From Branchipolynoe longqiensis (Eukaryota; Annelida; Polychaeta; Phyllodocida; Polynoidae), in assembly GCA_030323885.1 (NCBI GenBank), contig CM059186.1, positions 172,159,230 through 172,223,229 of the forward strand: DNA of 64,000 nucleotides, read 5' to 3'. Shown in pieces: positions 6,188 to 46,300 of this stretch; within the stretch, counting starts at the first letter, position 1, and each line of letters starts with the position of its first letter. Below the pieces are notes generated by a model. That model made no database searches and was not told the origin of the DNA. It saw nothing but the letters and a program-made list of their open reading frames with translations. Made by a program: the position numbers and the translations under genes.

Positions 6188-6233
6188 CTACACGAAGTCG
6201 AACAGGTACCGCACAATGTCGAAGTCCACAGTT
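6188..6233 (-). CDS. ORC5: ORC5 coding exon 13 (C-terminus and stop)
   Basis: After acceptor TTCCGCTCCAG it encodes (R)[14 protein letters not shown] and a TAG stop. This matches the conserved ORC5 end (TVNFDIIKYLYDFL in human). It supplies the third base of the Arg codon begun in exon 12. Confidence 0.92.
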
Positions 6234-9200: not shown

Positions 9201-12200
9201 CATTTACATAAGACTGCCAAGTTTCAACGTTCTGCTACAATTATAACTTACATTTTTAGAGGGGCAAATTGGCAAAACCCTGGGAAAAGCAGTCCTGAGA
9301 AAACGAGCTTCAAAGTTCACAAAGTGTTTCTTTCAAATGGTAAAGTCCACTATCATCATCTAGAATCCCATATTATATACACAAATATCCAGTCAAGTAA
9401 TTATCTGTCCAAAAAACATATCATTTACACCAAATTAGTACACCAAAAACCAAAAATCACCAGTTTGACCCAAATTCATATTCCGATCACCTGTGTCTCC
9501 CCTTAAGAAAACAAAAATTTGTAAGATTAAAAATAAGCATTAAAAACACCACCAACAACAAACTGACGAGGCCACCAGTTCGCTGTTGACTTTCAGTGCC
9601 CACCTGGCTATAGGCTTGATGAAGTCTAAGGCGACAAGACACTTGAACTTGGGAGCCTCGAGTATGTCCGAATTTCCGGTCTGGGTGAGCAGGCCGAGTG
9701 TGACGAGAGAGGTGATCTAGGGTAGAAAAAGGCCGACAAAATCAGCACAAATAACTGGTTTCACAGCAAAAACACACTGAAGAAAAACCGAAGAAAATTC
9801 TGTTTAGTTGTTGTTGACAAAATGGTGAATAGCAATCAGGGAGGAAAGTGGTCTCTGTAATAAAAATAATAAAAAATATAATTTAATCAATTACAAAATT
9901 TAATTAAAAAAGTGGAAATCTATGGCGAGGTTAACTGTAAACAATGTTATTCCAATAAGAGCATTGCTATCCTAGTAATTATTGCCCTACATGGTCCTCA
10001 TGCTTACCCGCGGACTTATTTCTAAGTGCATGTGAATGTGAATGGGTGGACGGCAAAGTGGATCGTTCAATGAACCGATCGTTGCAAATGCATGTACATA
10101 TTTGCATACGCATTCACATTTGCATGCCGCAAACCACGTATATCGCATCACCTCTTCCATCAGGCTGCAGTCTAGTGAAAGGTAAAGCTAAGATTCCATA
10201 TACGTGGTTTGCGGCATGCTTGATTGATTGATTGGTGGTTGCTTTACGATGTGTCGGCAGCATAGGCCATATTCACGGCGAGAAATGTTTGTTTTTTTGT
10301 TCAAACCATCGCTTTTACATGTAAAAGCAGACAATCAATTATGTGCCAATAGACACTAATTAAATTAGAAAGCTCACAATCATATATTTGTGGTGAAGGG
10401 AAACAAATTCGCATAGAAAAAGAAAAGTTTTATTAATAATTGATAGAATCCATTTAGTAAACTATATGAGGTGGTACAGTCCAGCTGCCCTCAAAAAGGC
10501 TAAAATGTTTTCCTGTTTTACCTTAGTAAAAAGGTCATGCATACTGACTGCAGTGTAGAACCGTTGGCGCAGGGCCAAAAAATCAACGCAACTTAGTAAA
10601 ATGTGTTTGAGTGTCAATGGGGACTGACACGCAATACATTCAGGGCAGGAGGTTCCCCCTTGAGCAGAACAAGCATGTGTAAGGCCAGGACGTGGCCAAT
10701 ACGGCAGCAGCGGCTAAGGACCACTTGGTCCCGCCCAGACCCTGCCACGCATGAGTCTGTGGTGGCTTTCCCACAGATGGTTCAATTTCTTTAAGTTTAT
10801 TAATGTTCTCATCCCACTCATGTTGCCATTTGGATTGTATGTGGGTGGCTATTAGTGGTTTCAGATCAGAGTGAGGGATCAGACACGGTTCAAGATCACA
10901 GTTCAGGGCCTTCTTCGCAGCCCGATCAGCTCGTTCGTTTCCTTGTATGCCGGCATGGCCAGGCACCCAGCACAGGTGGATATCATACCCATCCGTTGTC
11001 AGTTGGTTCATTTTATAAATGACCGTTGCTAGAATAGGGTGATTCGTTTTCAGTGCATTCGCATTTGCGGCATGCAAATGCGAATGCGAATGCGTATGCA
11101 AATGCATAAATGCATTCGCAACGATCGGTTCATTGAACGATCCACTTTGCCGTCCACGCATTCACATTCACATTCGCAACCAGACATACGGAAGCACCGC
11201 CGTGCGTTTACATGCTTTTCCTTTTTTTGTCGCATTCACATAACGCATATATGGAATCTTAGCTTTATCTGGCTACCAGACACATACTTCAGAACACACA
11301 ATGGGGCCAGGTTATAACTTCCTTGAATTGAATAGTTTATTTTTGTCAACGCCGTGGCACTGGTCTAATAATACTGCTGTAGAGTGATGGAAATGGGAAA
11401 TATTGCGCCTAAAGCAGGATTCGAACCCACATCTCTTGCCAATCCGTGGCTAGCGTGCTCACTATTACACTACTTAGGCTCCCTAAATCAATCACCCTCT
11501 TCATGTCCACCTGTCTATGTGGCTCCTTGCCCGAGACGTCAGTACAATCAACCAAAATACAGTTGATTTAATCAATATTTCTATCCCACTTTTTTACAAA
11601 TCGGTGTCCGTCCGGATTACCTTAGACGCTACCAGGACGTAAAACCCCAATAAAGCAAACAATCATACTGACTTGTGAAAAGATGTTGGCTGTGGGCGCG
11701 ATGCGACTGTCGACGACAGAGTAGAAGATGGCCATCAGGCGGTCCAGTGGGAAGGGCTTGGGGCCCAGCAGCTGATTAGACGTCTACAAAACAAGAACAC
11801 CGGTGAACCAGCCACACCTCAGGGTACGACAATAAGGACTGCCCGATTTCCCGGGGCACCTAATTTACTCGGTCGGTCAGGTGAAGTTTTCGATGACCTG
11901 TCTGAACAGTAAAGTCGTTATTTTTCTGATCTGCAGTAGCAGATTTCAGTTTCAATTGGCTGACTTAGGTTTGGGCAAGTAGTTTTGCCACTCCGTTACT
12001 CGGCTCAGGCAAGTAGAAAATTCAGTCACTTGCCCAAGGGCAAGTGGGAAAAAAGTTACTATCCAACCCTGCACCTAGTTTATCATCCAGTTTCTGATTT
12101 TTAAGGTTTGGAGTTCGAATCTCGGCCGAGTCAAACCATGACTTAAAAACTTGATACGTGTTGCTACCTAGACTGGTGCTCGGTATTCGTAGGATAGGGC

Positions 12201-15200
12201 AAGAACTGGTTAGTTCAGTATCAGGATAATGTTTGTTTGTTTGTTGTTTCACGTCCTAGCAACATCCAAGGTCATATCAGGATGCGCACTGACTTGTGAT
12301 AGTGCACACACATGGCAACTTTATTATGTTGTCCCAGTGGGAGACCAGGCTTCCGGCACTATGACTTGATATATCCCACATAGTCACATTATCCTGACAT
12401 TGTGCTAACCAGCGCTTGCCCTATCCTAATAATGCCAAGCACCTGGCGAGGAAGCGAAAGTATAAACTTTTATGTCATTGGTTGACTCGACCAGGGTTCG
12501 AACCCATGAATCCCATGATCTACCAAAACGGGCGACGGACACTCAACTCATTCGGCCACCCCGTCTGGTCTGGTCTTCATTGAATTGTAGGGTACCGGTT
12601 ATAAGATTAAATTAATCTAATCACTTACTCGTTCATGTTTCTTTAGTGATGCAAGTTGGGCGCGCTTTCCGACACCAGCTTTATACTGCAGAGACAAAGA
12701 TTTAAACAATTGCTTTAATCACATACATATACTGACATTTAATCAAATAGATATGATTCGCAACAAATGGGGGAGGAACGCGCTGTGGAGATAAGTAAAG
12801 CTTGTCGGCCCGAGAGAAAGTCGGCTCTGACGTCTTGGCTGCTGGAAAAGTAGTGCGAGAAATGGCAGCAGCGCAGTGGCAGGTTCTGGTGGGAGGCGAC
12901 AGGCGGCGGCTCGGGCAAGCGAGGTCCAAGTCAAGAAGAGCGGAGGTGCCCCCCTCCCTTCACTCTGCCACAAATCAAACACCATGCTAGGCATTACACA
13001 TCAATTATAAGCCTTTGATTTTGTTCAAGTATGTCGCATGGTTAATAAATTATCCATTTTTTTTATATTTTACATTTCTATAATTGCAGAGAGTTGTGAT
13101 GAGACTTTTGCGCACACTGACTTCTGGACCCCACCTGTTCTCTGAACAGAGATGTGGTTGTTCTCTGTACAGGGATGTGGCCATTAGGGGACAAAAATGA
13201 AAGTCAAGCTGGGGGACCTGCCCAATTGGATGTGGGGCCGACCCCCAATTGGATGTGGGGCCGCCCCCCAATGGGGGCAAAGGGGGCGGCACCACCGGAA
13301 CCCCCTGCAATTTAAGCATTTTAAAGTTGCATAGTTCAATGATTTTGAGTTTCTGTCATTTTAAAGAGATAAATAGATTAAATTGATTGTTATAATCTAC
13401 CTCACTTTAGCTTGAAGTAACTTATTTTAAATGGCTTAGTTTTGAGATATTTGTAGTGCAAACATGTCAAATTAGTTTTGGCAAGCATGTCATAGGCTTC
13501 TGAAGTAACAGATTATATTAAATTGCCTCAGTATTCCGTAGAATCTAGATAATTATTTTGGTTTTGAAAAGTTGATGCTTCATCGGACTACGCAGCTTTA
13601 AGTATATATTTAGGCTGTCTCCAGAAAAGCGGAAAACCAGAAATTTAGGCCACTTCGGGTCCCAGGCTTGACGGATATTTGGCAACAGCTCACCTTGGCG
13701 AAGAAGCGCCTGTCTGTCTTGGCTGGGTTGTAGGAGGCGAGGTAAGCCGCGATGAGCAGGTACTTGGAGTAGAACGGAAGCTCCACCTTTGTGCGCAGTG
13801 ACGTCACAGGCGGGGCAAGAGACGCTAACTGGGCACCGGAAGCAGCAGCCGCCGCTGCAGCATCGACTTCCTGTTGCTGTAGCCTCTCCCACTGCGCACT
13901 GATAGTGGGTGGGTGAGTGGGTGAGTGAGTGTTTTGTTTGTTTGTTGCTTTATGTCCTAGCAACATCTAAGGTCATATTAGGACAGGTGCCGACTTGCGA
14001 CAGTGCACACCCATGGCGACTTTATAGTACTGCCCCACTGGGAGACCAGGCAACCAGCACCATGACGTGATATCCCACTCAGTCACATTATCCTGACACT
14101 GAGCTAAACCAGTCTGGCTAGGAAGTGACAAGTATCAATGTTTAAGACATTGGTTTGACTCGACCAGGGTTCGAATCACGATCTACCAACCCGGGAGACG
14201 GACGCTCTAACTCATTCAGCCATCCCGTCTGGTGAGTGAGTGAGTCAATGGAGGTGAAAGATTGTCGGTTTGTTTGTTTGTTATTTTACATCCTAGCAAC
14301 ATCTACGGTCATATCAAGACAGGTACCGACTTGTGGGAGTGCACACTCATGTCGATTTTATAGTGCTGCCCCACTGGGAAACCAGGCCATTTGCAACATG
14401 ACCTTATTTTCCACAATCACATTATCCTGATACTGTGCTAACCAGTCCATGTCCTATCCTATTAATGCAGAGCTCCGTGCTAGGTAGCGACAAGTATTGT
14501 TAAGTCATCGGTTTGACTTGGCTAGGATTTGAACTCCCTACCTTCCACATGGGAAGTCTGCATTCTACTGATTGGGCAACCGGTTCTGGTGAGGTGATAT
14601 AAATGTGCTGCTCAACACACTACGCTATATGGGACATGGGGCCATCACATACACGGGCAGAGTGACTGAGTGTGGCCAGACAAGTTAGCGCATTTGCAGA
14701 GAGTGGGCACCACAATCGGGCCGGTTGCAGAGTCGATGAACAATTAATAGTACGAGCAGCACAATGAATGATTTATGGTGCTGTCACATTACGACGTTTC
14801 TTACCGGCGTGCTGCAAATGCGCAAAATATTTTAGACGCGTTGAGCCACATCCAACTTTTCGGCGTTTTGGGAGAAAATTCGATGGAGCACAGCGTGTTA
14901 GTAGCGTGTTATTAGCGCACGGCCAACGGGTTTCGACGTGTGGCGGAACAAAAAAATAGAGAAGACTGCTTGACCTAGTTTACTCCAGTGTCTGTCAGCG
15001 CGTGTGAACGTTCCGCCAGCCAGTGGGTTCCCAGCATGTCGACAGCGCGTTAATCAGGGTCGGCGGGTTCCCAGCGGGTTATCAGCGTGTTGACGGCGTG
15101 GGGGTGGCGCGTCATTAACGGGTGCCTAGATAAGGCGTCCGGTGCTTTGATATAAATAAGGGTGGAAACGTTCCCAGAACGCCGGGTAACGTTAGGCGCA

Positions 15201-18200
15201 TGGCAGACGCGCCAGCAACAGATCCAGACGCGCCAGCAACACGTCCAGACACGCCAGCAACATGTCCAGATGTGCCAGCTACAAGTCCAGACGCACCAGC
15301 AACACGTCCAACGCGTCGAGAAACGCTGGAGCAACGCCAATAGCGCGCCCACTACCCGTCCATGGAACGTTACGGATGCGTTGATGGACCGCTCGCAGTT
15401 TGGCGAAAAATTCCCAACGTTAATTGAAATTGATCAACGTGCTACGAGCGGTCCGGCAACACGCTGGTAAGTGTGTCGAAGTCCTGCAAACGCGCCCGTA
15501 ACGCGCGACCCAACACATTGACGCGCATTGTGGCTCGTCGAAAGTTTTGTGCAAGCACAAAACCTTCGACGCGGCCCGATGCGCGCCAACGTGTGGGTGC
15601 AGACGTTGTTGTCACTCAAAGTGTACCGACGCACCGGTAACACATTCGTAACGCGCCCTGATGTTTCGCCCAAAAAGGCAACACGTCGGCAAGAAACGGC
15701 GTAATGTGACAGCACCATTAAGATAATAATAAGTGAAAGCTCCGATTAATTAAACTTGTATAATGCTTATACATCACATATATTTCTGCTCACACGCTCA
15801 CTCACTCACTCACTCACTCAGATACACTGGCATATTATACATAACGGACACTTATACGCATCATGCGAAGGTAATCTTAAGTCATGTCAGTAGAGCCTTA
15901 ACCAAGTGACCCAATTCTGTTAGTTGGACAGTCGCAGCCCTCACCTGGACACCTCCCGCAGGTACACTGTCTGCAGCGCCTTCTTCAGCTGCGGTTCTAT
16001 GGCCCGCCACAGTTTGCTCTGGTTATCTTCCGTTGCTGAAATGCATTTTTACTAATTTAAATATTATTCTCGAAAAATTAAAGTGGTAGTAACATAACCA
16101 ACATATCTCTTCAGAATTATTATGCTCGAATGTGACTAATCATGGTTTGCATCTTGAATCAGATCATTCACTGAGTTATTTAGGTCCCAATCAAGGTCGA
16201 GGGTCTCTGGCCTAGTAATAGGAGTAATAGGATCATCCCGTAGACTTGTGCAACCAAATTAATTAGGCATGCTTACATTTCAAATATCGCCGAAGTAAGT
16301 CATTTTAAATCAAGGCCACTTCAATATAAAATAAGGTAGATTATAACAATTAACCTGATAAATGTATCTTGGAAAATGAGAGAAATTTAAAACCACCATT
16401 CTAAGCAACTAGAAATGTAGCGAATATTCACGTAAGGAACACAAGTTAAAAGCAGGTGAGCAGATATTTGAGTATATGCGTCATTCTCTGAAACTGGTCA
16501 CTAAAGTGTGACATGGAAACAGAAAGTGAAAACCTTCCAAATAATATCATAATCCATGTTCATATGAAGGTTTACATCTTGTGCGTGTGTCAGAGTTGAC
16601 AAAAAAAGAGAAGCTATTTCACTTTTTGATTTAAAAAAAGCCATTTCACCATTTGAATTGAAAAAAAGCTATAAACAAATTTGAAAAAAGTGAGGGTAAA
16701 TACATGACATCAATGTGTACATCTTCACATTTTCACTTTAGCACAAAACCATACCAGCATACTTTTAATACTTTTTGTGGGATAGATTAAATACGTGTAT
16801 TATTGCTAAACATACTAAGCAGTAACACAGAGAAACAACAATAATTATTTGACTTGCTACCATAAAAAGGAAAGAATTAATTATCACCATCTTAACATGG
16901 AAACCAAATATGTGGTGGCCAGTTTCAGCGAATGACCCATATATGTGTCACAGATGGACATACTTACCATCACCTCGCGTGATTGGCTCAGTGTACTTGG
17001 GAAAATTCAATAGTGCCTGAAAATATAATAAGATTGCTAATATTTTAATAGTTTACACTTTCAGAGCTTTTTACAACAAATTTTCTGTCGCCGCTGAAGC
17101 CCGTGGTGTATAAACTGAGTTGGCATGGTTTCACTTAACATATCTCCAAAGCTACCCCTAATAATAAAAGTTAGTGCAAAGTAAAGTAAGGTAGATTATA
17201 AAGATCAACATAATATATTTATCTCAAATAATGACAGAAACTCTAAACCATCGGACTATGTCACTTTAAATGTTTACATAAGCAAAAACTATCATTTTAC
17301 ACCTATTTTTAGTTAATATTATTTTTTTAAATTTTATTTTATAGATAAATATATTAGGCTGATTGTTGTAATCTACCTTACCTTAGTTTGAAGTAACATA
17401 TTAATATATTTGAAATGGCTAACATATATTTGAAGTGCAAACATGTCAAATTAATGTTGGCAAGAAGATCAAAACTTATTATTATTGCTGTTATTATGGG
17501 AGCATATTCCCAACAAACACACAATCCATTACTCAGGCTCCTTTCTTCTATTAAATTGGAAATTATATGAAAATCTAATTTGCCTGTAATCGTGAAAATA
17601 AAAAGCGCAATTCACTGACCAGATGTCGCAGTTCATTCAGGTCCCGACATACGAGGTGGAAGACGGAAAGCACTAGGTTACAGTAGTTGCGGTAGAAGTT
17701 TGCCTTGTAGCCGGCTGGGCAGTCCATCGTCACCAGTTCCAGCAGCTGATCTGCAACAAGCCGTGTAATAGATCAGGGTTCGCACCCATTTTGACATTTC
17801 AAATTCCAGGACTTTCCTGGAACTTTCAGCGCAAAATTTCAGGACGTTTTAAAGACGTTTATTAAAGTAAAGTACCCCGAAACACAGCTGTATTCATAGT
17901 CGATTCACGTGTTGATACACATGAAGTGTAAATAAGCATAAAAATATAAAAACAAATGTATTTATGTATAGTTTTAATATAAAAATCAACAGACTAGACA
18001 ACAAACCCACAAAAATCACTTTAAATACAAGACATCACTGATTACACTTTGCGCATGTTGACGAATATATATACGATTTTTTAAAATATCGTCATGATTT
18101 TCCATTTTCAAGGACAAATTCCAAGATCTTCCAGGCCTGGAATCCTGAATTATCAAATTCCATGACTTTTCGGGTTTTTAGGGACCCATACAAACCCTGT

Positions 18201-21200
18201 AGATCACACGCATAGTAAGACACTTTTACGAGAGCTTTTAATTAAACAGCGAACATTGTCATGGCAGGGTAGTATCAATGAAGCTGATAATGTTGAGTGC
18301 GGGTTTGCGGTATTATTTATGCTATGGTCATTGGTGTGATGAAAATGGGAAATATTGCACCTAGACAGGATCTGAACGCACACTTCTTGCCATTCTGGGG
18401 CTCCGACATTCCTACATACATATGAAATGCAATATTTAATCACTCATACAAGTTGTTCCTCCAATTTCTATTGTTAACAGAATAGTATATGTTTATGGAA
18501 TAATGTTTATAAATTGTGAATAAAATGTCTTAATTGGGAGTCAATGAATTTTTATATGTGAACTGTCAAACTATACCAAACTGATCTTTGAATGATTAAT
18601 ATTGTTATTTCAGCTGATTTGAGCTAGCTGCTGATGACAATATCAGACTACATATACATATATTGTAAATAACTGTATGGTCACATGGCTGGAAGACCAG
18701 TGCTACGGTGCTGACAAAAGACTTTATTCAATGAATAGACTATATTTACAACAACAACAACAAAATGTGTCTGTATTTGAAAATCTCTTCTGGTACCTTT
18801 AGTGTAGTCGGGGAAGTGGACTGTGTAGGGTTCCAGACACCCGGTCCCCGTGCGGAACTTGTCCCACACAATCTCGGTTACACACACGACACATATGTTT
18901 AGGCCGCTCTGTGATGGACAAACACATGGTACATGATAAACCCGTCTTATGGGTCATCCAAAGTTTTCAACAAAACACACAACATAAAGTTTTCAACATT
19001 ATGTTGTGTGTTTTGTACATTAGTTGATTAAGCAGGGGAATTTCAATCGCGGACAATTGGTCTTCCTCATTTGACAGCTCTTTGCCCTATCATAGTAATA
19101 ATGCTGAACGCCAGGCTAGGTAGTGACAAGTATCAGTTTTTAAGTCATTTGTTTGATTGGTTGGTTGTTGAAGTTTTACGTCCTGGTAACATCTAAGGTT
19201 ATCTCAGGACGGGTACCGACTTGTGACCATGGACATCCATGGAGACTTTATACTGCTGCCTCACTGGAAGACCTAGCTGCCGGCACCATGACCCGATTTC
19301 CCACTCAGTCACATTATCCTGACAATGAGCTAACCAGTCCGTTCCCTATCCTAGCAATGCTGAGCGCAAGGCTAGGTAGTGACAGGTATCAATTTTATAC
19401 GTCATTGGTTTGACTCAACTGGGATTCAAACTCCCAACCTTCCACACGGGAAGCTTGCGCTCTGCTGATTCGGCCACCGCGTCCGATCCTGTCATTCATT
19501 GGAGGGACAGTCAAATGAGACAAAAACTAATCATAAATTCTAAAACTGTCACCAAATGGCAGGGGTCCGCATATCGCAGTTGTCACTGAAGACTGTGACT
19601 AACCTATACACAAACACAGGGTCCGTACATATGCGTAGATATGGAATTCAAGGCTAATTCAAGGCTGTTTTTTAATAGGAATTCAAGACTATTTTCATTT
19701 GGATTTCAGGGAAAAAAAACAATGTCGATTTCAGACTAATTTAGATCAGGCGGGACAGTTTAATGGAATTCAAGGCTTTTCAAGACTAATTACTCAAAAT
19801 AGGTTTAAATTCAAGGCTTTTTAAGGCCATGAAACACAGCAAATGAAGTTCAAGACTTTTCAAGACCGTCCATGCCCCGCAAGTGTTGCACTTACCAGTT
19901 CTGAAAGCCGAAGAAAGCCTGGTAGAAGATTTGCAGACATATCACGGAGTCTTTCTGCCTTATCAAACACCTGAAACCGAAGAAAGCCTGGTAGAAGATT
20001 TGCAGACATATATCGGAGCCTTTCTGTCTTATCAAACACCTGAAACCGAAGAAAGCCTGGTAGAAGATTTGCAGACATATCACGGAGTCTTTCTGCCTCA
20101 TCAAACACCTGAAACCGAAGAAAGCCTGGTAGAAGATTTGCAGACATATCACGGAGTCTTTCTGCCTTATCAAACACCTGAAACCAAAGAAAGCCTGGTA
20201 GAAGATTTGCAGACATATCACGGAGTCTTTCTGCCTTATCAAACACCTGAAACCGACGAAAGCCTGGTAGAAGATTTGCAGACATATCACGGAGTCTTTC
20301 TGCCTTATCAAACACCTGAAACCGAAGAAAGCCTGGTAGAAGATTTGCAGACATATCACGGAGTCTTTCTGCCTTATCAAACACCTGAAACCAGAGAAAG
20401 CCTGGTAGAAGATTTGCAGACATATCACGGAGTCTTTCTGCCTTATCAAACACCTGAAACCGACGAAAGCCTGGTAGAAGATTTGCAGACATATCACGGA
20501 GTCTTTCTGCCTCATCAAACACCTGAAACCGAAGAAAGCTTAAATAACCGGAATGTGCAGCATTACATTTATCAATAAACCATTTCAAAGTTATTTGTGT
20601 TTATTTTGTGGGGGTGATAAACTTTGTTCATCGGCTACGTCCACAAGTACATTACTCTGAAGTCTAGTCTCAAGCAATATGGTTCATTGTGGCTGTTTGA
20701 AGTTACACCTTACTGTTTGAGATTAGATCCCCCGATAGACTGCCATATCGCCGTATTAAACTTTTGTCATAGTTAATCGATGAGTATACATTAAAAGAAT
20801 TATTTTAATCGCGAAAACCCACGAAATCGCTTGGTTTATGCCACTGGTTTATGCATCACTGGAAATTCAGCTCTGAATTTTTAAACAGTGTCAAATACAT
20901 GGTTTCAAGCAATCATCATCACCACCATCATCATCACTCCCTTAACCGCGAGGGCACCACAGATATCATTGCAACCAGTTTTCCCTGTTCTCCACGACCC
21001 TCTGACTTTCTGAACTCCAGCAACGAGAATATAATAGAATAGAAATAAATAAAATAACAAATAAAAATAATAAATTAGAATAGAGTTACAAGAGTAACGA
21101 GAATGAACAATAAGATCAATGAGAGCCCTGATCTATTAACTCCAAACACTCACCAAATAAATAGTCTGTGTGATCGCTTGCTCCTCTGCTACTGTTTTCA

Positions 21201-24200
21201 GAAGCCTTACAAAGTCATTCATGTTGTCACACTTTGCGTAGGTGTCGAAGTCATTGTCGGGCGTGGGCACTGTGCCCGACAGGTGGTTCAGGATGTGTTC
21301 GTACAGCCGTCGTGCTGTGTAGTGTTCGACGCAGTTCACCACAACATGCGGGGCCTGCGGTCAAACAACGAAACACTATGCACTGAGTCACTATCGTATA
21401 ACTTTGACATCACTTGTCCTGTGACCATATGTGTATATGCATGTGAAATGCTTAGTATATATGTATACATCCAGGGACATATCTGATTCTCGGCAAAGAT
21501 TTCAGTTGCAAATTTGTAGTAACAATGTACTTTGCATAAGCATGAACTAAAATTTAATGTAACATTGGTTGCTTGGCTGGAAGATCATCCCTTAGGGAAG
21601 CCATAAAGTCACCTTACTACATGCTTGTGGTCATAGAAAAATACATATTAGATTAATGATTATAATCTGGTTTAATTTAGTTTGAAGTAACTTATTTTAA
21701 AGGGTTAACTTTGAAGATATATATATATATATATTTTTATATACCAACGTATATACTACGTATATGCGGATGTAGGCGGCGCACGGGGGAGACCCCCCCC
21801 CACCCTCCGGTTTGGCAAACCGGGTGGGGGGGGGCGGCTATTGTAACAGCCGCGGCACCCACTCACACAGCCCACTTGCCGCTCGCCGGCTGCCTCACTC
21901 TGCCCTGTGACGCCAGCCTGTAAAATTATTCTTAATACACGTTAGGGCCAGCGGACGACGGCGAGGTAAGTCGGCTGCAAACTGTAGCGACTTGCCTTTA
22001 ATGTGACTTTATTCTGACCTTAATATTACTAGTCTGAACCGTTACGTACGGGCCAACGGACGACGTCACGGGTGCCTTTCAAAGGCAGGTGGATCCTCGC
22101 GACAATCTTCAAGTCGGATTCAGACGTCTGCCCGCCTCACGTACACCTTAGGGCCAGTGGACGACGGCGAGCCTGAACCGTTACGTACGGGCCAACGGAC
22201 GACGTCACGGGTGCCTTTCAAAGGCAGGTGGATCCTCGCGACAATCTTCAAGTCGGATTCATACATCTGCCCGCCTCACTTACACCTTAGGGCCAGTGGA
22301 CGACGGCGAGGTAAGTCGGCTACATCCCATAGCGACTTGCCTTTAATGTGACTTTATTTTGACTTTAATCTATCGCTACCATATTACTAGCCTAAACCGT
22401 TACGTAACGGGACAATGGACGACGTCACGGGTGCCTTTCAAGGCAGGTGGATCTTCGTGACAATCTTCAAGGCGGGTTCGGTCGTCTGCCTGCCTAACTT
22501 ACACCTTAGGGCCAGCGGACGACGGCTAGGTAAGTCGGCTACATACTGTAGCGACTTGCCTTTAATTTGACCTTATTGTGACTTTAATCTATCGCTACCA
22601 TTACTAGCCTGAACCATTACGTACGGGCCAACGGACGACGCACTGACTCTCTTGCTAATCGATCGCCTAACCTTATACTCGGGCAGACGCCCCCTGTTGA
22701 ACTGATGTAGCCGAGTATTGAACCGGCCACACTAAGCCGCTAATGTACTGCGGTCCTTGTGGCTGCCAACACAGAGGACCAGTCAACGAGGCTTGTCACC
22801 GCGCAGCAATGCAGACTAGGCGAGCCACGCGGTCAGCTGACAGATCAAGCGCCATGTCAGGTGATGGTGACTTAGTAAAGGATAAGGCACCGGCGCCGTC
22901 CAGTCCCCCAGCTGCCCCAAGTGATGAGGAAATGGACGAGCGGGAGCGCGCCATTGCGGCCAAGGAGCGGGCGATGGAGCGACGCAAGCGCTGGGCGGAT
23001 CTGGATCGCCGAGAAAAACGCCTGGAGAACGACGCGGCCGACCTGTCGTCGAGACGGAAGCGGGGCCGGAGCCCCAGCAGGAGGCGCAGCGGCTCGAGGG
23101 AACGACGCCATCGCCACCGTCATTGCCGGTCGACAAGCTCCAGTTCGTCATCCTACAGAACAATGAGCCGCGAAAGGCGTCAGAGAAGTAAGTGGTCAAT
23201 TAAGCGCTACGTCGAGGACCGCAAAGACCTAAAAAAACTCTCGCCTTTTGAGATTGTCGAGGCATCCTGTGCATGGGTTCTGGACAAAAAAGATTTGGAC
23301 TTACAAGACTTGCGCCGGTTTGTCAAACACCTTAAGTATATAGCGGGGAAGGCCAAGTCGGGCAGATTCCAGGACCAGGCGCACGCGGGCTATGACCTTG
23401 CAATACGAAAGCTTGCAACGGTGGACGGCTATGACGCCTTTTGCGCAGGGAACCCTGAGCTGGCACTAAAGCACTATGCCTTCGAATCAATGCGCAGTCA
23501 GCACTCCAAGGGGAGCAACTCAACAGGCAGGGCGAGTCATGGCTCCACCAAACAACTCTACACCAAGGATGGGAAGAAGCCTTGTTTCGCCCACAACAAG
23601 GATGAGGGTTCTGGACGCGACGATAAGACTTGTAATTGCAAAAGCTCTTGGACTTTTCTTCCGATGGCGAGGAGCACTACAACTCCCCATTCAGTATGGA
23701 TGAGTTGAGGTGTTCTTTGGAAAGCTCGCATGACACAGCAGTTGAACCTGATGGAATTCATTATCAATTTTTGAAACATCTCCCTGAACATGGACTGAGA
23801 CTGTTGCTTCAACTCTTCAACAACATCTGGGAGTCGGGTGTCGCCCCCGCCTCTTGGCGGGAGGCGACAGTAATACCGATTCCCAAACCTGGTAAAGACC
23901 AGAGTGAAGCCCACAACTATCGTCCCATAGCCCTTACAAGCTGCATCTGTAAAACCATGGAGCGCATGGTAAACAACCGCCTCGTCTGGCTACTGGAGTC
24001 AGGACACCCCCTGTCCAACCTTCAATGTGGCTTCAGACGGGGCCGCAGCACCCTCGACCATTTGGTGTGGATGGAGACCTTCATAAGAGATGCTTTCCTT
24101 AAAAAGGAGCACGTTGTGGCTGTCTTTTTCGACCTCGAAAATGCCTATGACACAACGTGGCAGCATGGCATCATGGAGGATCTTCATGCGATTGGCCTTC

Positions 24201-27200
24201 GTGGCCACTTGCCAATTTTCATCAGGAACTTTCTAGCCTTCAGGCATTTCCGCGTCCGTGTCAAGGCTACCTATTCCCGCCTACACTCACAGGAACTAGG
24301 AGTACCTCAAGGCAGCATACTGGCCGTGACCCTTTTCGGGGTCAAGGTCAATGGTATTGCTGCTGCTGTAAAGCAGGGGGTCTCCTGTAGTCTTTTCGTG
24401 GACGACTTTGTTTTATATTACAGCGGTGCTAACATGAATGTCATAGAGAGACAGCTACAACCAAGCATAAATGGGATCCATCGATGGTCAGTTCTGAACG
24501 GTTTCAAATTTTCCAAGACCAAAACAGTCTGCATGCACTTCTGCCTGCTGCGTAGAATACATGCGGAACCGGAGCTGACCCTGGATGGGGATCCCATTAA
24601 AGTCGTTGAGAAAACCAAATTTCTGGGCCTCATTCTCGACGCAAAACTGTCTTTTGTGCCACATATAAAGTACCTGAAAACAAGATGCCTGAAAGCGCTG
24701 GACATTCTGAGGGTGCTGTCCAGCTCAGAGTTGGGAGCGGTCAGAGATGTTCTGCTCTCCGTGTACAGAACCTTGGTTCGTTCACGAGTGGATTACGGCA
24801 GCATAGTATATGGTTCCGCAAGGAAATCATGTATTGGGCTGCTAGACACGATCCACCACCAGGGACTGCGCTTGGCCCTTGGGGCCTTCCGCACCTCACC
24901 AGTTCAGAGCCTTTATGTCGAAGCCAATGAACCATCACTTAATAACAGGAGAATCAAACTGGCCATGCAATATGTAGTCAAGATAAAAACTAATGCATTG
25001 AATCCTGCACACAATTGTCTATTCGAGCAACATGACGAATCCAGGTATGAAGCCAGGCCAAATTACATCCGGCCACTGAGGCTCCGAATGAAACCTCATT
25101 TGGAGGCCTTAGGTGTGGATTTGGACGTGTTGGAGGATGCCAAAGTCCCAGAACATCCCCCGTGGTCGTTGAGAAAGCCATCGGTTATCCTCCGACTCAC
25201 GGAACTGAGGAAATCTGGGACACATCCACTCGAGTACAAAGGACTGCATGCAGAGATTCAAGGCCAGTTTGCAGACCACCTCTCCATATACACTGATGGT
25301 TCGAAAGACCAAAGCCGGGTAGCTGCTGCGGCAGTCTGCCGATGGGAAAAATTTGGTGTACGTTTGCCCGATCAGTGCTCGATTTTCACTGCAGAGGCCC
25401 GAGCACTCCTTCTGGCTTTGGAGTGTATCGAGGTATCCAACCAAACTAACTATGTTATATACAGTGATTCCTTCTCTTGCCTCCTGGCTGTTGCTGGACT
25501 GAAAACGAATCACCCTATTCTAGCAACGGTCATTTATAAAATGAACCAACTGACAACAGATGGGTATGATATCCACCTGTGCTGGGTGCCTGGCCATGCT
25601 GGCATACAAGGAAACGAACGAGCTGATCGGGCTGCGAAGAAGGCCCTGAACTGTGATCTTGAACCGTGTCTGATCCCTCACTCTGATCTGAAACCACTAA
25701 TAGCCACCCACATAAAATCCAAATGGCAACATGAGTGGGATGAAAACATCAATAAACTTAAAGAAATTGAACCAACTGTGGGGAAGCCACCACAGACTCA
25801 TGCGGGAGGTCGGCGGGACCAAGTGGTCCTTAGTCGCTGCCGTGTTGGCCACTCGTGGCTTACACATGCTTTTCTGCTCAAGGGGGAACCTCCCCCTGAA
25901 TGTATTGGGTGTCAGTCCCCACTGACACTCAAACACATTTTACTAAGTTGCGTTGATTTTTTGGCCCTGCGCCAACGGTTTTACACTGCAGGCAGTATGC
26001 ATGACCTTTTTACTAAGGTAAAACAGGAAAACATTTTAGCCTTTTTGAGGGCAGCTGGACTGTACCACCTTATATAGTTTACTAAATGGATTCTATTAAT
26101 TATTAATGAAACTTTTCTTTTTCTATGGGAATTTGTTTCCCTTGACCACAGATATATGATTGTGAGCTTTCTAATTTAATTAGTGTCTATTGGCACATAA
26201 TTGATTGTCTGCTTTTACATGTAAAAGCGATGGTTTGAACAAAAAACAAACATTTCTCGCCGTGAATATGGCCTATGCTGCCGACACGGCGTAAAGCAAC
26301 CACCAATCAATCAATCAATGTAATTTCGGACACTGGTGCTCCCGTTGTGGGAGTAAGTACCATATCAGGGCTAAGTGCCGAAAGGAGTGAATTCCTAGGG
26401 GGAGGGGCAGAGGGAGAAGGAAGCGACGTGTGGTTTATGTTAATGCAGTTATCGCACCTTCAATCAATTGTTCAACCTGTTGCCCCTGTGACCCCGTACC
26501 ACTAACTGGGGCTGAGTGCTCTGCCCCCCATTGTGTTAACCATACTAATATCGAAACTCACTGTTCACTAGTTCCGGGTGTGGGTATGTGTCCCAGCGGC
26601 TTATTGGCCCGTCGCCACTATGGCGCCCCCAGCTCAATTAGCCTGAACCTTTGTGTGTTTCTGGATAACCACCTTACTAATTGCCCCATCACTCCCGCCA
26701 GTTACGGCGACCCCACTACCTTCGCCCTTTGTGACGAGATGTGCGTGTCGCTCTCGGGGGAGGAGCTCCCTGGGGGGGTGGGCGGTCACGCTCCCACTGC
26801 CACGCTTCTGGCGGGTGCCTGGGCTGTTTGTCCTAATTGGGTGAGCATCGGCCGTGATTGGCTAACTGTTTCTCCATGCGAAAGAGGCCTTTCTGTTTCC
26901 GCCTCCGATAATTATTCGCATGAATCAAGCAATTTTACTGTTACCTTGTCTTGTTTTGAAGCAACTTGCTGCTGCACACACTTCATAGCAGGCCGAGCCA
27001 CCCAATTTAAGCCTTGTCGGGCATTTTGTGACTGCTTCGCCAGGGGCAATTTCGACCCTGATTGTGACTTTATTATGCGCGGCGCCATATTTGGCTTTAA
27101 AGTAATTAATCCAACTTGTACCGCCAATTATTCGGTTAGCCACCCACCCCGCTCCATTTTTGAAACAAAGAACTTTATTGATGATAAGCTTAGATCTGAG

Positions 27201-30200
27201 CTCGCCGCGGGCTATATAAGCTATGCCGATGTAGCTCCCATTTGTACTCATAACATCTTTGCAGTCCCTAAATCTCTCGCTGCTGGCTATAGAATGATTG
27301 TCGATTGTAGTAAGCCGAGAGATGTCTCAGTAAATAACTTTGTCTATGAGATTACACAGAAATTCTCTTACCAGGGTGTTGATGATCTTGTCAAAATGAT
27401 GATCCAAGGCGAGTTCATTGCCTCCGTAGATATTAAGGACGCCTACAGGGCGATTTCCATACACCCAACCGACCGGCCTCGCCAGGCCTTATCTTGGGAC
27501 TTCGGTGAGGGAACAACAATTTTCTTGGACAATCGTCTGTGTATGGGCCTCTCCTCAAGTCCCTTCATCTTCAGTAGAATCTCTGACTTTATTGTACGTT
27601 GTGCTCGCAGGGATGGGGTCCTTCGCACTGTTAATTATCTTGACGATTTCGCTGTTCTAGGCACTGACTTTGAGGACTGCCTTCAGAATCAGCTGTTAAT
27701 AATGAAAGTTTTACGCCATCTAGGCTTCTACCTGAGTTACTCCAAACTGCCCGCTCCAGCCCAATGCCTAAGGTTCTTGGGAATAGATATAGACACTGTA
27801 AACTTGCAACTCAGACTTCTGGTGGACAAGATTGTTAAGCTAAAACATGTGCTGTGTCTCTTCCTCGGCCGAAAGAAGGCGTCCCGCAGGGAACTCGAAC
27901 GCTTGGGTGGACGCTTGGCACACTGCTCGACGGTCGTCCGGGGTGGGCGCTCCTTTTCCACCAGGGTCTACGACGCTATTCGCCAGCTGAAAAAACCATA
28001 TTTTAAATTTAGGCTAAATAACGAGTTCCGCTCTGAGTTGAGCTGGTGGCTCACCTCTGTGGATTCCTTCAATGGTTTTGCAAAAATGCTAGGCGTCCAC
28101 GCCACTACCCTTTCAGTGTATAGCGATGCGTCTAACTGGGGCTTTGGAGCCACCCACTCGGACGACTGGTTGGTGGGTAGTTTTGCCCCAGATCACACCT
28201 TGGCGGAGGAGCTGGGCCATCATTTTTCCAGCTGTTCCCCTGATATCGATAAGTTGCATATTAACATGAAAGAAATGTGGGCCGTCGTTGCCGCCTCCAG
28301 ACGCTGGTGTCATTTATGGAGGGATCGCTGTATAGTCTTTGTAACAGATAATAATACTGTCCGTGCCGCCCTATCTACCGGGCGCTGTGTAAATAAGCAT
28401 ATCATGTTATACGTAAAAGAGCTCTTCTGGCTTTCAATTACCTATAATTTCGAGATTAAATCTGCTTATGTCAGAAGTAGTGATAACATTATTTGTGATG
28501 CCCTAAGCAGGTGGAGAGATCCGGTTAGTAGGAACCGGGTAAATGGTGCCGATCATGTGAGACGCTTATGTTGCACCTCACTCTTTTCTAACTAACTCCT
28601 CTTCCTTTCCAGGTCTGGATCGCTTGAGGGGGGCGGCTAGGGCTATGGGCGACCGCTATTACTCGACAAACTCCCCCTCAACTAGGGCGATGCAGCTCAA
28701 GAAATATCTCGCCTTTATAGACGAGTTCAGGGGGATCCTTGCGCCCTTGCCATGCCCCCCCTCTCAGGTGGCTATCTACATCGTTTGGTTAGCTCGAACT
28801 CTTAAGTACTCATCTATTACTAACTACCTGAGCGCCCTTAATTTCTTTCTCAAATCTGAGGGCAGTGACCCTATTGATTTCACCTCACATCAAATACGTA
28901 CTGTCCTGGGGGGTACTAAGCACACCCTTGGTTGTGCGGTCAAGCGCGCAGCGCCCCTTCTGCCCGCCGAATTAATTAAAATGTTCTCCTTTATGTCGGA
29001 AAGCGTGGGCCACGTTTCTACGCGTGCTGCCCTTTTGCTGGCCTTCAGGGCGCTATTGCGCAAGTGCCAGATCACCGCCTCTGAATCGGTCTTGCTACAC
29101 TCAGATTTCGCCTTTTATACCTGGGGTATGGTGGTAAAAGTCCGCCACTCAAAAACAATTCAATTCTCTGAGCGTGAGCTCCTCATACCGGTGGCATGTG
29201 TGCCGAACACTGAACTGTGTGCCGTGTTCTGGGTAAAAAAGCACTTTGCCCAGGCTAAGGTGGGCCCCAGCGAACCGGCATTCCAGGTCCCTTCTGGGCC
29301 CAGTGGCTATGCTCCGCTTGACTACCCAACGCTGCAGTCGACCATTAAGCACTTCGCCTCCTTGGCGGGTCTTGCCAGAGACAATTTTTCATGCCACTCG
29401 CTTCGGCGAGGTGGCTGCACCTATTTGGCCTTACAAGGAGTTTCGATCGACGAAATTAGGACCAGGGGGGACTGGTCCTCAGATGCTATTTACAAATACA
29501 TATCCCGACCCCTGTCTGATCGGATCATCGCTGACATGCGGGTGGCTTCAGCCCTTTCAGCTGCCACTTAACTCTGTCTGGGTGGGTCCATGGGACTTGG
29601 CACTATGCGCCCAGCCAGATACTGACTATTGACTTACTGTGAAATAAAGTTGTATCCTCCATTCCGTTTCCGTCTCAGTGCGTAGCTTACACCAACGTAT
29701 ATACTACGTATATGCGGATGTAGGCGGTGCATGGGGGAGACCCCCCCCCCCCTCCGGTTTGGCAAACCGGGTGGGGGGGCCGGCTATTGTAACAGCCGCG
29801 GCACCCACTCACACAGCCCACTTGCCGCTCGCCGGCTGCCTCACTCTGCCCTGTGACGCCAGCCTGTAAAATTTTATATTTTATTCCGGTAGGGCACTAT
29901 GCGCCCAGCCAGATACTGACTATTGACTTACTGTGAAATAAAGTTGTATCCTCCATTCCGTTTCCGTCTCAGTGCGTAGCTTACATATATATATATTAAA
30001 ATCTAGATAAGTGTTTTGGTTTGGAAAATTTCATCAAATTATGCAGCTTTAATTAATAATTAGCACGGAATAAATATATAGATGGAACTGGGCTTTATAT
30101 AAGTATGCAGGGCATATCATACTTTTATAGAACTTTTCTCAATGAAAAATATCTAATCTACATCTAGCATAGGAGCATATTAAAAGGTTGTACCGCTATT

Positions 30201-32121: not shown

Positions 32122-32621
32122 NNNNNNNNNNNNNNNNNNNNNNNNNNNNNNNNNNNNNNNNNNNNNNNNNNNNNNNNNNNNNNNNNNNNNNNNNNNNNNN
32201 NNNNNNNNNNNNNNNNNNNNNNNNNNNNNNNNNNNNNNNNNNNNNNNNNNNNNNNNNNNNNNNNNNNNNNNNNNNNNNNNNNNNNNNNNNNNNNNNNNNN
32301 NNNNNNNNNNNNNNNNNNNNNNNNNNNNNNNNNNNNNNNNNNNNNNNNNNNNNNNNNNNNNNNNNNNNNNNNNNNNNNNNNNNNNNNNNNNNNNNNNNNN
32401 NNNNNNNNNNNNNNNNNNNNNNNNNNNNNNNNNNNNNNNNNNNNNNNNNNNNNNNNNNNNNNNNNNNNNNNNNNNNNNNNNNNNNNNNNNNNNNNNNNNN
32501 NNNNNNNNNNNNNNNNNNNNNNNNNNNNNNNNNNNNNNNNNNNNNNNNNNNNNNNNNNNNNNNNNNNNNNNNNNNNNNNNNNNNNNNNNNNNNNNNNNNN
32601 NNNNNNNNNNNNNNNNNNNNN
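32122..32621. other. Assembly gap, exactly 500 N
   Basis: 500 consecutive N, a round number suggesting a placeholder rather than a measured size. Confidence 0.98.
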
Positions 32622-42787: not shown

Positions 42788-42941
42788 CACAATGCTCGCC
42801 TTACATTTACAGCCGCTTATTATAGCTTGCGCTATATATCTAAATATCGCAAACTTTGCCATATTTCCAGAGACCGAAGGCAAGAACTGGGTGTCCTTTT
42901 TTTAATCTCAGGGGGAAGGAGATTCAAACACAGCCACCACA

Positions 42942-43365
42942 ATGTCAACGGTCAACATGGAGGTGAACAACTACACAGAAACAACGCGTGTCTACTACAC
43001 CAACTACATCCGCAACTACCGAGCGGTGGGTGTCATGTGGGGCGTCTTCGTCATCTGCTTTGCCATCGTGAACATCGTGGTCTTCCTGCAGCCTCAGTGG
43101 ATCGGAGACACGGACGTGAGCCCGGGCATTGGCTACTTCGGCCTGTTTGAGTTCTGCCACCTATACACTGCGGGCCAGAATCTGTACTGCAGTGGCACCT
43201 TCGACCAGTTCAGCACCATTCTGTCTGGGGAGTTTAAGGCGGCCACCTTCTTTGTTGGCGTCTCCGCCCTAGTGGTGCTCATCTGCATCTGCTGCTTGCT
43301 CATGTTCTTCTTCATGAGGGCCTCGTACGTATTCGTCATCTGCGGCATCCTGCTTGCACTGTCGG
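42942..43365 (+). CDS. LHFPL-like coding exon 1
   Basis: 141 codons plus one base, from [11 protein letters not shown] to LLALS(G). Covers TM1, the first loop, TM2 and most of TM3. Donor TCGG|GTGAGT. A strong acceptor (CTTTTTTTTAATCTCAG, ending 42911) precedes the ATG by 30 bases, implying an upstream non-coding exon. A stop lies in frame upstream, so this ATG is the natural start. Confidence 0.93.
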
Positions 43366-46300
43366 GTGAGTTTTTTATATTTGTTATCTCTTTCAGTTAC
43401 TAGACCAGACGGGATGGCCGAATCAGTTAAGCGTCCGTCTCCCGTTTTGGTAGATCGTGGGATTCGAACCTATTGGTTTACACCCTAGTCGAGTCAAACC
43501 AATGAAAATTGATACTTGTCGCTTCCTAGCCAGGCGCTCGGCATCATTGCGATAGGTTGGCTCAGTTTCAGGATAATGTGACTGAGTGGGATATCAGATC
43601 ATGGTGCTGGTGGCCTGATTTCCTAGTGGGGCAGCACTAGTATTAAGTTACCATGAGTGTTGTTTTTTTGTTTGTTTTTTTTTCTTGAAGATTTATACTG
43701 CGTATCATGGATAAGTCTGAATAGACTTGTTTTCACCATTAGACAGTTTGTTGATAGAAAGCCTGAGCCTACACTTTTACCGACCCAAAGGTTTTTTAAC
43801 CTCCAACACCACATAGACATGGTATGAGAGCAACTGGCCTTTGATGACGCTGTAAGTTATACACAGCGGTACAAATCCAAATTGGCAGAGGTGGGGGCAC
43901 TGTCACAAGTCGGTACCCGTCCTGATATGACGTTAGATGTTGCCAGGATGTAAAACTCCGACAACCAATCAACTTTCAGTTACTATATATATTAGTCGTT
44001 CTCAGAAACTGCATGCCACATATTTGGTTTCCATGTTACATTGTTGATAATTAAGCCTCCTCTTGTCCCGGCCCTTCCGCTCCCGGGGATCCTTCCTTCC
44101 ATTCCCCTCCCCCTCCTTCGCTCCCCTCTCCCATCCTCTTGTCCAAAATGTTCACTTGTCCAACGGAAAAGCTCGAGCCATACTCTGGTTGTCCGTCCCT
44201 ACTCTCACTTGGCGTAGACAAGCCTTATTTCGAACGTTGTTATGTTACTTCCCTTTGACTGCTATTATAAAAGTGGCCCATATTCTCCCACATCCACAAT
44301 GCCACCGGCCTGGCAGGTTTTAAATCCAACCGGATCTTGTTGACGCGTCTTTTACATTTGACCTGGAGTTATCTTTCAAGGAATGTCAACAATAAATATT
44401 TATCGGCTTTATGTAGCCTGGTGTCGTCTAGCTTCTTACAGCCTATAGGATTTCAAATTTTATGGGAAACAACATTTTTGGTGCCGTGCTCAAGGGCTCC
44501 TGGGAACCCAGCGGTAATGACTTTCAGGTTCTGTGAAACAGGTGATGGGAAACAAAAACTTAATGGGAACCAACATTTTTGTTCCGTTGTTTTTCCAGCA
44601 TGGTAGCGTCACATTGCCGGAAACGATCGTTACCGTGAAATCTTATTGGTTGATCTTAAAGTTGCATAGTCCGATGAAAACATCAAATTTTCAAAACCAA
44701 AGCACTTATTTAGATTTGATTCTATATATTCAACTTAGATACTGGTTCACCTATTAAGCATTTATTTATGCATAGAAGGTCGTATTAGGTCAATTTAATA
44801 GAACCTGTTAGTACTGAATTCTATGGTGTCAGAGTTTCGGCGTGCTTGCCAAAATTAATTTGACATGTTTTAACGCCAAATACCTCCAAAGTTAGCAATT
44901 TAAATTAAAAGTTACTTCAAACTAACGTAATTTCGATCATAACGATCAGCAAAATGTATTTATCTCAGAAAATGGCAGAAACTCAAAAGCATCGGACTAT
45001 GCAACTTTAAGTAGCGTTTCTTTGAATATATTTATTGTCACATTGAAGACGCGGTAAGGATTGGGATTAATAGTTATCTAATTTATTAATCGAGCAGTGA
45101 TGTACCTAACATTGTACACCAGATTTATTCTTTGTCTTCATCATTGTATTGCTCAAACATTGACATTTTAAAGCTGCATAATCCAATGATAAGATCACAT
45201 TTTCTAAACCAAAACACTTGCCTAGATTTACTCTACATACCCAACTTAGATACTGATGTTGAACATTTACTGCATTTTGGTGACCCTGTGCTATGCTCGA
45301 AAATGGGTAAATAAAGCCTTATTTGTGTCCAGCATTTCGGTGTGCACACCAAAATTACTTTAGCATGTTTCCACTTCAGGTATTTCCAATATCAAAACTG
45401 CAAAATTAAATGTACTTCAAAGTAAAGTAAATTATATAGTGACCAGCCTAATATAATTTATGTGTTTTTTAAAGCAAAATCGAACGGAAACTTTAATTAA
45501 AACATCAAAATATGAAAAACTTTAAGAATAATGAACTCATTATTCCATTAAGCCCATATGGGTGTGGGAGTCCAAATATCGACACAGATGGTTGGTTGGA
45601 TGTGGGAGTTTTATGTCCTGGCAACATCTAGGGTCATACAGGACAGCTACCGACTTGTGCACTCATGGCAACTGTATAGCACTGCTCCACCTGGGAGACC
45701 AGGCCACCAGCACCATGACCTGATATCCCATTCAGTCACATTATCCTGACACTGAGCCAACCAGTTCTTGCCCTATCCTAATAATACAGAGCGCCTGGCT
45801 AGGAAGCGACAAGTATAAATTTGTATGTCATTGGCCGGACTCGACCAGGGTTCGACGAATCTCATGATCTACCAAAATGGGAGGCGGACGCTCAACTCAT
45901 TCGGCCATCTCGGCCATCCCGGCTGGTCATATCGACACAGAAGATGGCGGTATTAGTGACTGGTTTAAAGAGGGCGGATATATGACTGGTGTTCTAGTCT
46001 TTGTATCAAGTCAATGTGTTGCGATTCGAGTCACCTTGACAGGACGTGGCTGCATTCCAGTCAGGCCGCCCCGTCACGCTCTGGTTGGCAGCGAGGGTAG
46101 GCCGTGGGCACACAGGTTCCGTCTGGGGCCGTGGGGGTTTAGTGGAGGGGGGAGGGTCGACCATGTTGGAAAGGAGGTGTGCGAATATTTTCTCCATGCT
46201 GCGTTCCATATTCACCGAAAGCACATTTAAATTGGTGAACTTTTTCTTTTGTCACTAAGTTAAATTGGTAAAATTCATGTATCATCGTCATAATTCTACT

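Follow-up and report, generated by a model that had tools for sequence, protein, structure and literature searches.

The only ORC5 gene found in the genome of the polychaete Branchipolynoe longqiensis contains nine tandem 69-nt units, each preceded by a splice acceptor and all open in the ORC5 frame, in what appears to be a minisatellite lying across the boundary of intron 3 and exon 4. The array is located on the minus strand of a 64,000-nt stretch of contig CM059186.1 (GCA_030323885.1), the whole of which was analyzed and is referred to as the window, and its presence in the assembly is confirmed. The explanation considered best, in which the minisatellite arose by tandem duplication and mainly the last unit is spliced, may be given an even chance of being correct as a whole. 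The features of the gene and the array are presented in Table 1.

Table 1. Features of the ORC5 gene and its repeat array, in the order of transcription. Positions are those of the window; on the minus strand, each unit starts at the higher number.
Feature	Position	Strand	Remark
Exon 1, coding part	31042..31137	-	proposed ATG (putative start) to FGE
Exon 2	30194..30286	-	Walker A, GHSATGKS
Exon 3	21154..21354	-	phase 0 end ...TIYL|GTGAGT
Four of the five top branch-point candidates of the 5'-most acceptor	20545..20576	-	A at -23, -41, -50 and -54 from unit 1
Intron 3 end, 17 nt, GCTTTCTTCGGTTTCAG	20523..20539	-	pyrimidine tract and AG of the 5'-most acceptor
Nine-unit array (eight 69-nt units and the last unit, to the end of exon 4)	19896..20522	-	open in ORC5 frame
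Unit 1	20454..20522	-	
Unit 2	20385..20453	-	
Unit 3	20316..20384	-	consensus, ...FLRFQ
Unit 4	20247..20315	-	...FRRFQ
Unit 5	20178..20246	-	...FLWFQ
Unit 6	20109..20177	-	consensus
Unit 7	20040..20108	-	VFDEAE...
Unit 8	19971..20039	-	
Exon 4, one-unit form (75 nt)	19896..19970	-	unit 9, then donor GTAAGT
GCTTTCTTCGG in exon 4 (unit 9)	19908..19918	-	proposed founding breakpoint; partner of the 11-nt repeat at 20529-20539
Exon 5	18797..18908	-	beta4 region
Exon 6	17620..17750	-	
Exon 7	16968..17016	-	
Exon 8	15945..16035	-	
Exon 9	13694..13898	-	
Exon 10	12629..12685	-	
Exon 11	11673..11783	-	
Exon 12	9604..9716	-	
Exon 13, coding part	6188..6233	-	with stop codon

From 20522 to 19896, the nine units follow one another without gaps, each preceded by TTTCAG|GTGTTTGA. 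An initial annotation of this DNA had described nine 69-bp units in the ORC5 frame, and the description holds: nine exact copies of the boundary word TTTCAGGTGTTTGA are spaced 69 nt apart on the minus strand, and the gene is recognized as ORC5 by the match to PDB 5uj7 given below. TRF analysis of the window returned the array as the top of 61 rows, with a period of 69, 9.2 copies, 96% matches and a score of 1192. When up to one mismatch was allowed, the window held nine occurrences of TTTCAGGTGTTTGA, whereas 100 dinucleotide shuffles averaged 0.03 and none of them reached nine. In the whole 1.85-Gb assembly the word gave 23 matches, nine from the array and 14 that were lone and scattered, and a reversed control pattern gave 21. 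Outside 19880-20560, no 14-nt word is shared with the unit within the window, and no ungapped 63-nt match with at least 34 identities to the unit was found in the window outside the array. The copy number of nine comes from one assembly.

The same annotation had placed TTTCAG at the end of each unit. This is correct for eight units, whereas the ninth runs on as CTTTCAGAACTG|GTAAGT to form the end of the exon. Units 1–8 each comprise 63 exon-derived nucleotides (21 codons) and the 6-nt acceptor TTTCAG, which would be translated as Phe-Gln if included. The entire array is open in the ORC5 frame and CAG|GTG is present at all nine boundaries. In GCTTTCTTCGGTTTCAG, which precedes unit 1, the first 11 nt are the same as those that close the exon part of the consensus unit. 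Since these 17 nt match the unit end, the array comprises nine units and one partial unit.

The host gene is intact, with 13 exons, GT and AG at 12 of 12 introns, and a frame of 459 aa without an internal stop when one unit is read. Its assignment to ORC5 is supported at the sequence level. The one-unit join of exons 2–6 matched the chain of PDB 5uj7 that is named ORC subunit 5 (phmmer E = 3.9e-63), the one-unit product aligned to that chain without gaps at the joints of exons 3, 4 and 5, and most of the top ten matches to a 408-aa query were named ORC5 (98–100% coverage, 57–62% identity). The ORC5 of 5uj7 is the human protein. A six-frame ORC5 search of the animal's own 1.85-Gb genome, in which all 30 of the 30 best candidates were scored, produced 11 matches, every one of them within the gene that bears the array. 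Readings of the locus as a pseudogene, or as one of two ORC5 loci, were rejected on the basis of the open 13-exon frame and the location of all 11 genome matches in one gene. ORC5 is essential in other animals. If it is essential here, a functional form must emerge from the array locus, as this is the only ORC5 found.

Several observations were made in the neighborhood of the gene. Intron 2 harbors a mobile element on the plus strand (21835-29873) with a reverse transcriptase frame (26391-28592), another frame with reverse transcriptase and RNase H (23636-26074), a frame (28561-29568) whose phage-integrase match is weak and does not reach the Pfam cut-off, and an exact direct repeat of 93 nt that starts at 21835 and 29781. 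In its make-up it is similar to a DIRS/Ngaro-type element in which a non-LTR element is nested. A gap of exactly 500 N (32122-32621) lies upstream of the ORC5 start. Further upstream, and divergent from ORC5, is an LHFPL (lipoma HMGIC fusion partner-like) gene from which two plus-strand exons were recognized (42906-43400 and 57795-58148, Pfam PF10242). Human ORC5 and LHFPL3 are neighbors as well, which suggests that the linkage is old. A plus-strand frame of 223 aa, open from stop to stop, contains a further minisatellite with a 15-nt unit and 35.5 copies (46390-46929).

Both boundaries of exon 4 are in phase 0, as is the end of exon 3. As the initial annotation had proposed, any of the nine acceptors may be joined to exon 3 in frame: each join gives a stop-free coding sequence with an exon 4 of 75–627 nt, and the predicted protein is 459 aa long with one unit and 482–643 aa long with two to nine units. 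The splice sites and branch points were scored with simple weights based on the general animal consensus, and the values are rough. By these weights, the nine unit acceptors scored 9.1–11.6 compared with 0.1–9.6 for nine of the 11 other ORC5 acceptors. The exon 4 donor is strong, with a rough score of 10.6 on the same weights. The unit boundaries also score as weak GT donors (5.8 on these weights; 3 of the 8 other scored ORC5 donors are lower). Since each boundary doubles as a weak donor, the splicing out of a whole unit as a GT..AG intron is conceivable. All eight inner acceptors, that of unit 9 included, have a competing AG (CCAG, score 6.6) at a distance of 17 nt on their upstream side; if the one before unit 9 were used, the frame would close after 160 residues. 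On the same rough weights, the best branch-point candidates scored 4.5 before unit 1, 3.0 before units 2–8 and 2.3 before unit 9. The candidates before unit 1 that are listed in Table 1 lie outside the repeated unit.

The Walker B/alpha3 segment encoded by the unit was then counted in other ORC5 proteins, with a copy defined as an ungapped identity of at least 10 in 25. Two homologue searches, each with the 8,000 best candidates scored, gave 909 and 315 significant matches, and the best 120 of the 909 together with the best 120 of the 315 yielded 171 distinct proteins. By the ungapped identity test, the segment is present exactly once in all 171. A third search, from which all 84 matches were taken, brought the set to 234 proteins, shorter ones included; here the segment occurs once in 230, is absent from four, and occurs more than once in none. 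These counts support the statement of the initial annotation that the segment is single in other animals; the gene described here encodes one to nine copies depending on splicing. In a predicted ORC5 of Batillaria attramentaria (P0110, 581 aa), the VELPYYSK segment is preceded by a long insert rich in proline and alanine, which may be an annotation effect.

With queries of 408, 313 and 196 aa, none of the matches listed went above 62% BLASTP identity across at least most of the query length, and none of them is similar enough to come from the same species. The top identity to the window ORC5 over most of the query was 62% by BLASTP among the matches listed, and 65% over 396 columns of the tree alignment. 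Since the best identity among the matches listed is only 62%, no close relative was seen among those matches in the protein database. In a tree of the window ORC5 with 42 of 120 homologues, the protein branches from an open fork that also holds the annelids, the molluscs, one nemertean and one brachiopod. No report of this ORC5 array was found in the open-licence PMC literature.

The units vary at 8 of their first 63 positions. Units 1–3 differ from units 4–6 by only two changes in 207 nt, and the array was thus probably copied in blocks, as these are the same triplet. Of the eight variable sites, five are nonsynonymous and three synonymous, whereas a ratio of 70:29 (plus 0.8% stop) is expected without constraint. 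The variation is therefore consistent with the neutral expectation, an argument for relaxed constraint that is limited by there being only eight sites. Six of the eight upstream units (1, 2, 4, 5, 7 and 8) are altered at residues that are near-fixed in the 171 homologues, and units 3, 6 and 9 carry no such change. Among those homologues, glutamate at K4, the Walker B lysine, is found in one and threonine at A5 in none; arginine at L20 and tryptophan at R21 are each found in none, and tyrosine at D10 in at most one. Unit 1 carries both the K-to-E and the L-to-R change. Since three of the nine units are clean, a clean unit 9 would be expected one time in three by chance and is weak evidence. In units 1 and 7, the ORC5 pair DK becomes DE, the glutamate of which is the one seen in a single homologue of the 171. 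DE is the canonical Walker B acidic pair.

The effect of additional copies on the protein was considered using a model of Haliotis ORC5 calculated with 30 aligned sequences (AAA+ core mostly at pLDDT > 80; C-terminal part poor; mean 68.9). In this model, the Walker B strand spans residues 129–134 and is followed by helices at 136–141, 146–151 and 153–157 and by beta4 at 161–167; the repeat unit corresponds to residues 132–154. The initial annotation had equated the unit with the Walker B region. The strand is split, however, and its first half (TIYL) is encoded by exon 3. Since exon 3 ends with TIYL and the unit supplies only VFDKAE, the inner copies would be without the first half of the strand. 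According to the model, any added copies would form a bulge that follows the Walker B strand and precedes beta4. PMC5039278 describes a hairpin between alpha3 and beta4 for the pre-sensor 1 superclade of AAA+ proteins, so that an insert at this site is not absurd. A beta solenoid, obtained in the best model when the array was folded alone, was rejected as unreliable, as the five alignment-free models disagreed (mean pLDDT 85 for the best and 70–45 for the rest).

A founding event may be proposed from the flanks of the array. The end of exon 4 in unit 9 is GCTTTCTTCGGCTTTCAGAACTG, which has an 11-nt word, GCTTTCTTCGG, in common with GCTTTCTTCGGTTTCAG; when the left 17 nt were put through 20,000 simple shuffles, 7 gave an equally long shared word. 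The ancestor would have had one copy, with the acceptor on the left and the exon end on the right, and a tandem duplication would have taken place between these 11-nt direct repeats, one in the pyrimidine tract of the intron and the other at the exon end. Each added unit would take TTTCAG from the intron, with the frame reading Phe-Gln. At the two positions encoded by TTTCAG, the homologues have Phe in 16 of 171 and Gln in 158 of 171, and an exonic source of the hexamer is thus also possible. The 11-nt repeat may itself be the product of exchange and not its cause. From one duplication, the array would have grown by unequal exchange, with units 1–3 and 4–6 as one copied block, and growth of this kind would explain the triplet pattern. 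Since 69 is divisible by three and every copy carries an acceptor, the frame is kept whichever copy is spliced or whichever unit is removed; with the frame intact, the expansion would be nearly invisible to selection. Through exon definition, the single strong donor at 19895 would mainly pair with acceptors in its vicinity, above all that of unit 9 at 19970. Most of the message would then encode the 459-aa ORC5, and units 1–8 would serve as intron with a low level of multi-unit in-frame products. Both the founding mechanism and the choice of splice site are inferred from the sequence.

Main use of the unit 9 acceptor is judged to have a probability of about one half. In the initial annotation, exclusive use of the 3'-most acceptor had been offered as an alternative, and the evidence leans towards main use of that acceptor. 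The gap-free alignment of the ordinary ORC5 product to 5uj7, the unmutated state of unit 9, the alterations in six of eight upstream units, the fit of the units to an absence of constraint, and a 75-nt exon 4 that falls within the 46–205 nt of the other exons' coding parts all count for unit 9. The competing CCAG and the stronger branch-point candidates upstream of unit 1, which favor the first acceptor and full inclusion, count against it. The nine acceptor scores are nearly equal, and thus the sequence does not single out unit 9. It is unlikely, but worth weighing, that the 5'-most acceptor at 20522 is mainly used and that all nine units (643 aa) are placed between the Walker B strand and beta4. 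This acceptor and its branch point are probably ancestral. Only unit 1 is preceded by non-repeated intron with the better branch-point candidates, the inner acceptors face a competing AG 17 nt upstream, the entire array is open, and the insertion site, as placed by the model, has the counterpart in another AAA+ superclade described above (PMC5039278). On the other hand, unit 1 would have to complete the Walker B strand, yet it carries the K-to-E and L-to-R changes seen in one and none of the 171 homologues, respectively. If splicing used an AAG that lies 16 nt 5' of the acceptor at 20522, the frame would close after 137 residues. An exon 4 of 627 nt would also be far longer than any of the other twelve exons in its coding part, and two copies are found in 0 of 234 homologues. 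Mixed acceptor choice, giving isoforms that range from one to nine units and could vary by tissue or allele, is likewise improbable: while nine near-equal acceptors are all in frame and the boundaries score as weak donors, an essential subunit would be exposed to many altered forms, and no conservation was seen to suggest that selection keeps the ladder.

The remaining two readings concern the locus itself. Near-identical short tandem repeats are easily miscounted and the 500-N gap is about 12 kb from the array; the assembly may thus give a wrong copy number for the true alleles, too high or too low, or the whole array may be an assembly artefact. This is very improbable, as the units bear distinct variants in a three-unit higher-order pattern, the array is continuous and joined to unique flanks, and the assembly is long-range, with the window at 172 Mb of C1. 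That the gene is a decaying copy, with the array as a mark of its decay, might be read from the mobile element in intron 2 and from the array itself; against 13 exons, an open 459-aa frame, GT/AG at 12 introns and no second ORC5 locus in the genome, it is hardly credible.

A known system with some resemblance is the human 6-16 gene (IFI6/G1P3), an interferon-induced gene with a minisatellite of 12-bp units. Like a minisatellite of this type, the ORC5 array lies over an exon-intron boundary in the gene model and carries a splice-site consensus, here that of an acceptor, in each unit. The two differ in that 6-16 has donors in 12-bp units, whereas ORC5 has predicted acceptors in 69-nt units with 21 exon-derived codons; moreover, the 6-16 gene is interferon-induced while ORC5 is a replication ATPase. 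The title of the 6-16 work by Turri, Cuin and Porter (1995), a minisatellite with multiple splice donor sites, is cited in PMC3618361 and PMC2572611, and by that title both are minisatellites that supply multiple splice sites to one transcript.

Intron gain through the duplication of AGGT segments, reviewed in PMC3443670, offers a second comparison. The ORC5 boundary is CAG|GT, the unit is readable as a GT..AG intron, and its removal keeps the frame; in contrast, the ORC5 duplication would have included a pre-existing acceptor, there are nine copies, and the units are putative introns. A further comparison is with the potato RdRp gene PGSC0003DMG402000361 (PMC4974935), where the segment duplicated in tandem spans an intron-exon boundary, and a new intron was created as the acceptor was copied with it. 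The duplicated ORC5 segment likewise crosses such a boundary and copies an acceptor with its pyrimidine tract. In potato there was one duplication, which copied a putative branch site as well, and the new intron is backed by RNA-Seq reads, whereas the ORC5 array has nine copies with only 6–17 nt of intron per unit. In the prawn Rlec lectins, in-frame coding tandem repeats of 30 or 33 bp are ascribed to slippage, and in-frame repeats are combined with alternative acceptors in one gene family (PMC7536079). The passages on these repeats describe ordinary coding repeats and do not mention an acceptor per unit, unlike ORC5. What is new here is that a minisatellite with multiple splice sites is combined with a boundary duplication, with acceptors in place of donors, in nine copies and in a core AAA+ gene.

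If mainly the unit 9 acceptor is used, nine near-identical 3' splice sites compete in one natural transcript, from which proximal choice, branch-point distance and exon definition could be read. It is quite improbable that the sole ORC5 of this animal exists as a graded series of isoforms in which acceptor choice and allele length determine how many 23-residue units, from one to nine, are inserted between the Walker B strand and beta4. If this were true, it would be a repeat-tuned AAA+ ORC subunit in which a translated acceptor, Phe-Gln, comes with each added unit, and in its full-length form DE would replace the usual DK as the Walker B pair. More generally, a core replication ATPase with a variable repeat insert would be very surprising should the units be included. 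If unit 9 is mainly used, the locus would represent a natural experiment in which an acceptor-bearing minisatellite grows harmlessly within a single-copy core gene, and a step on a path to intron growth or gain.
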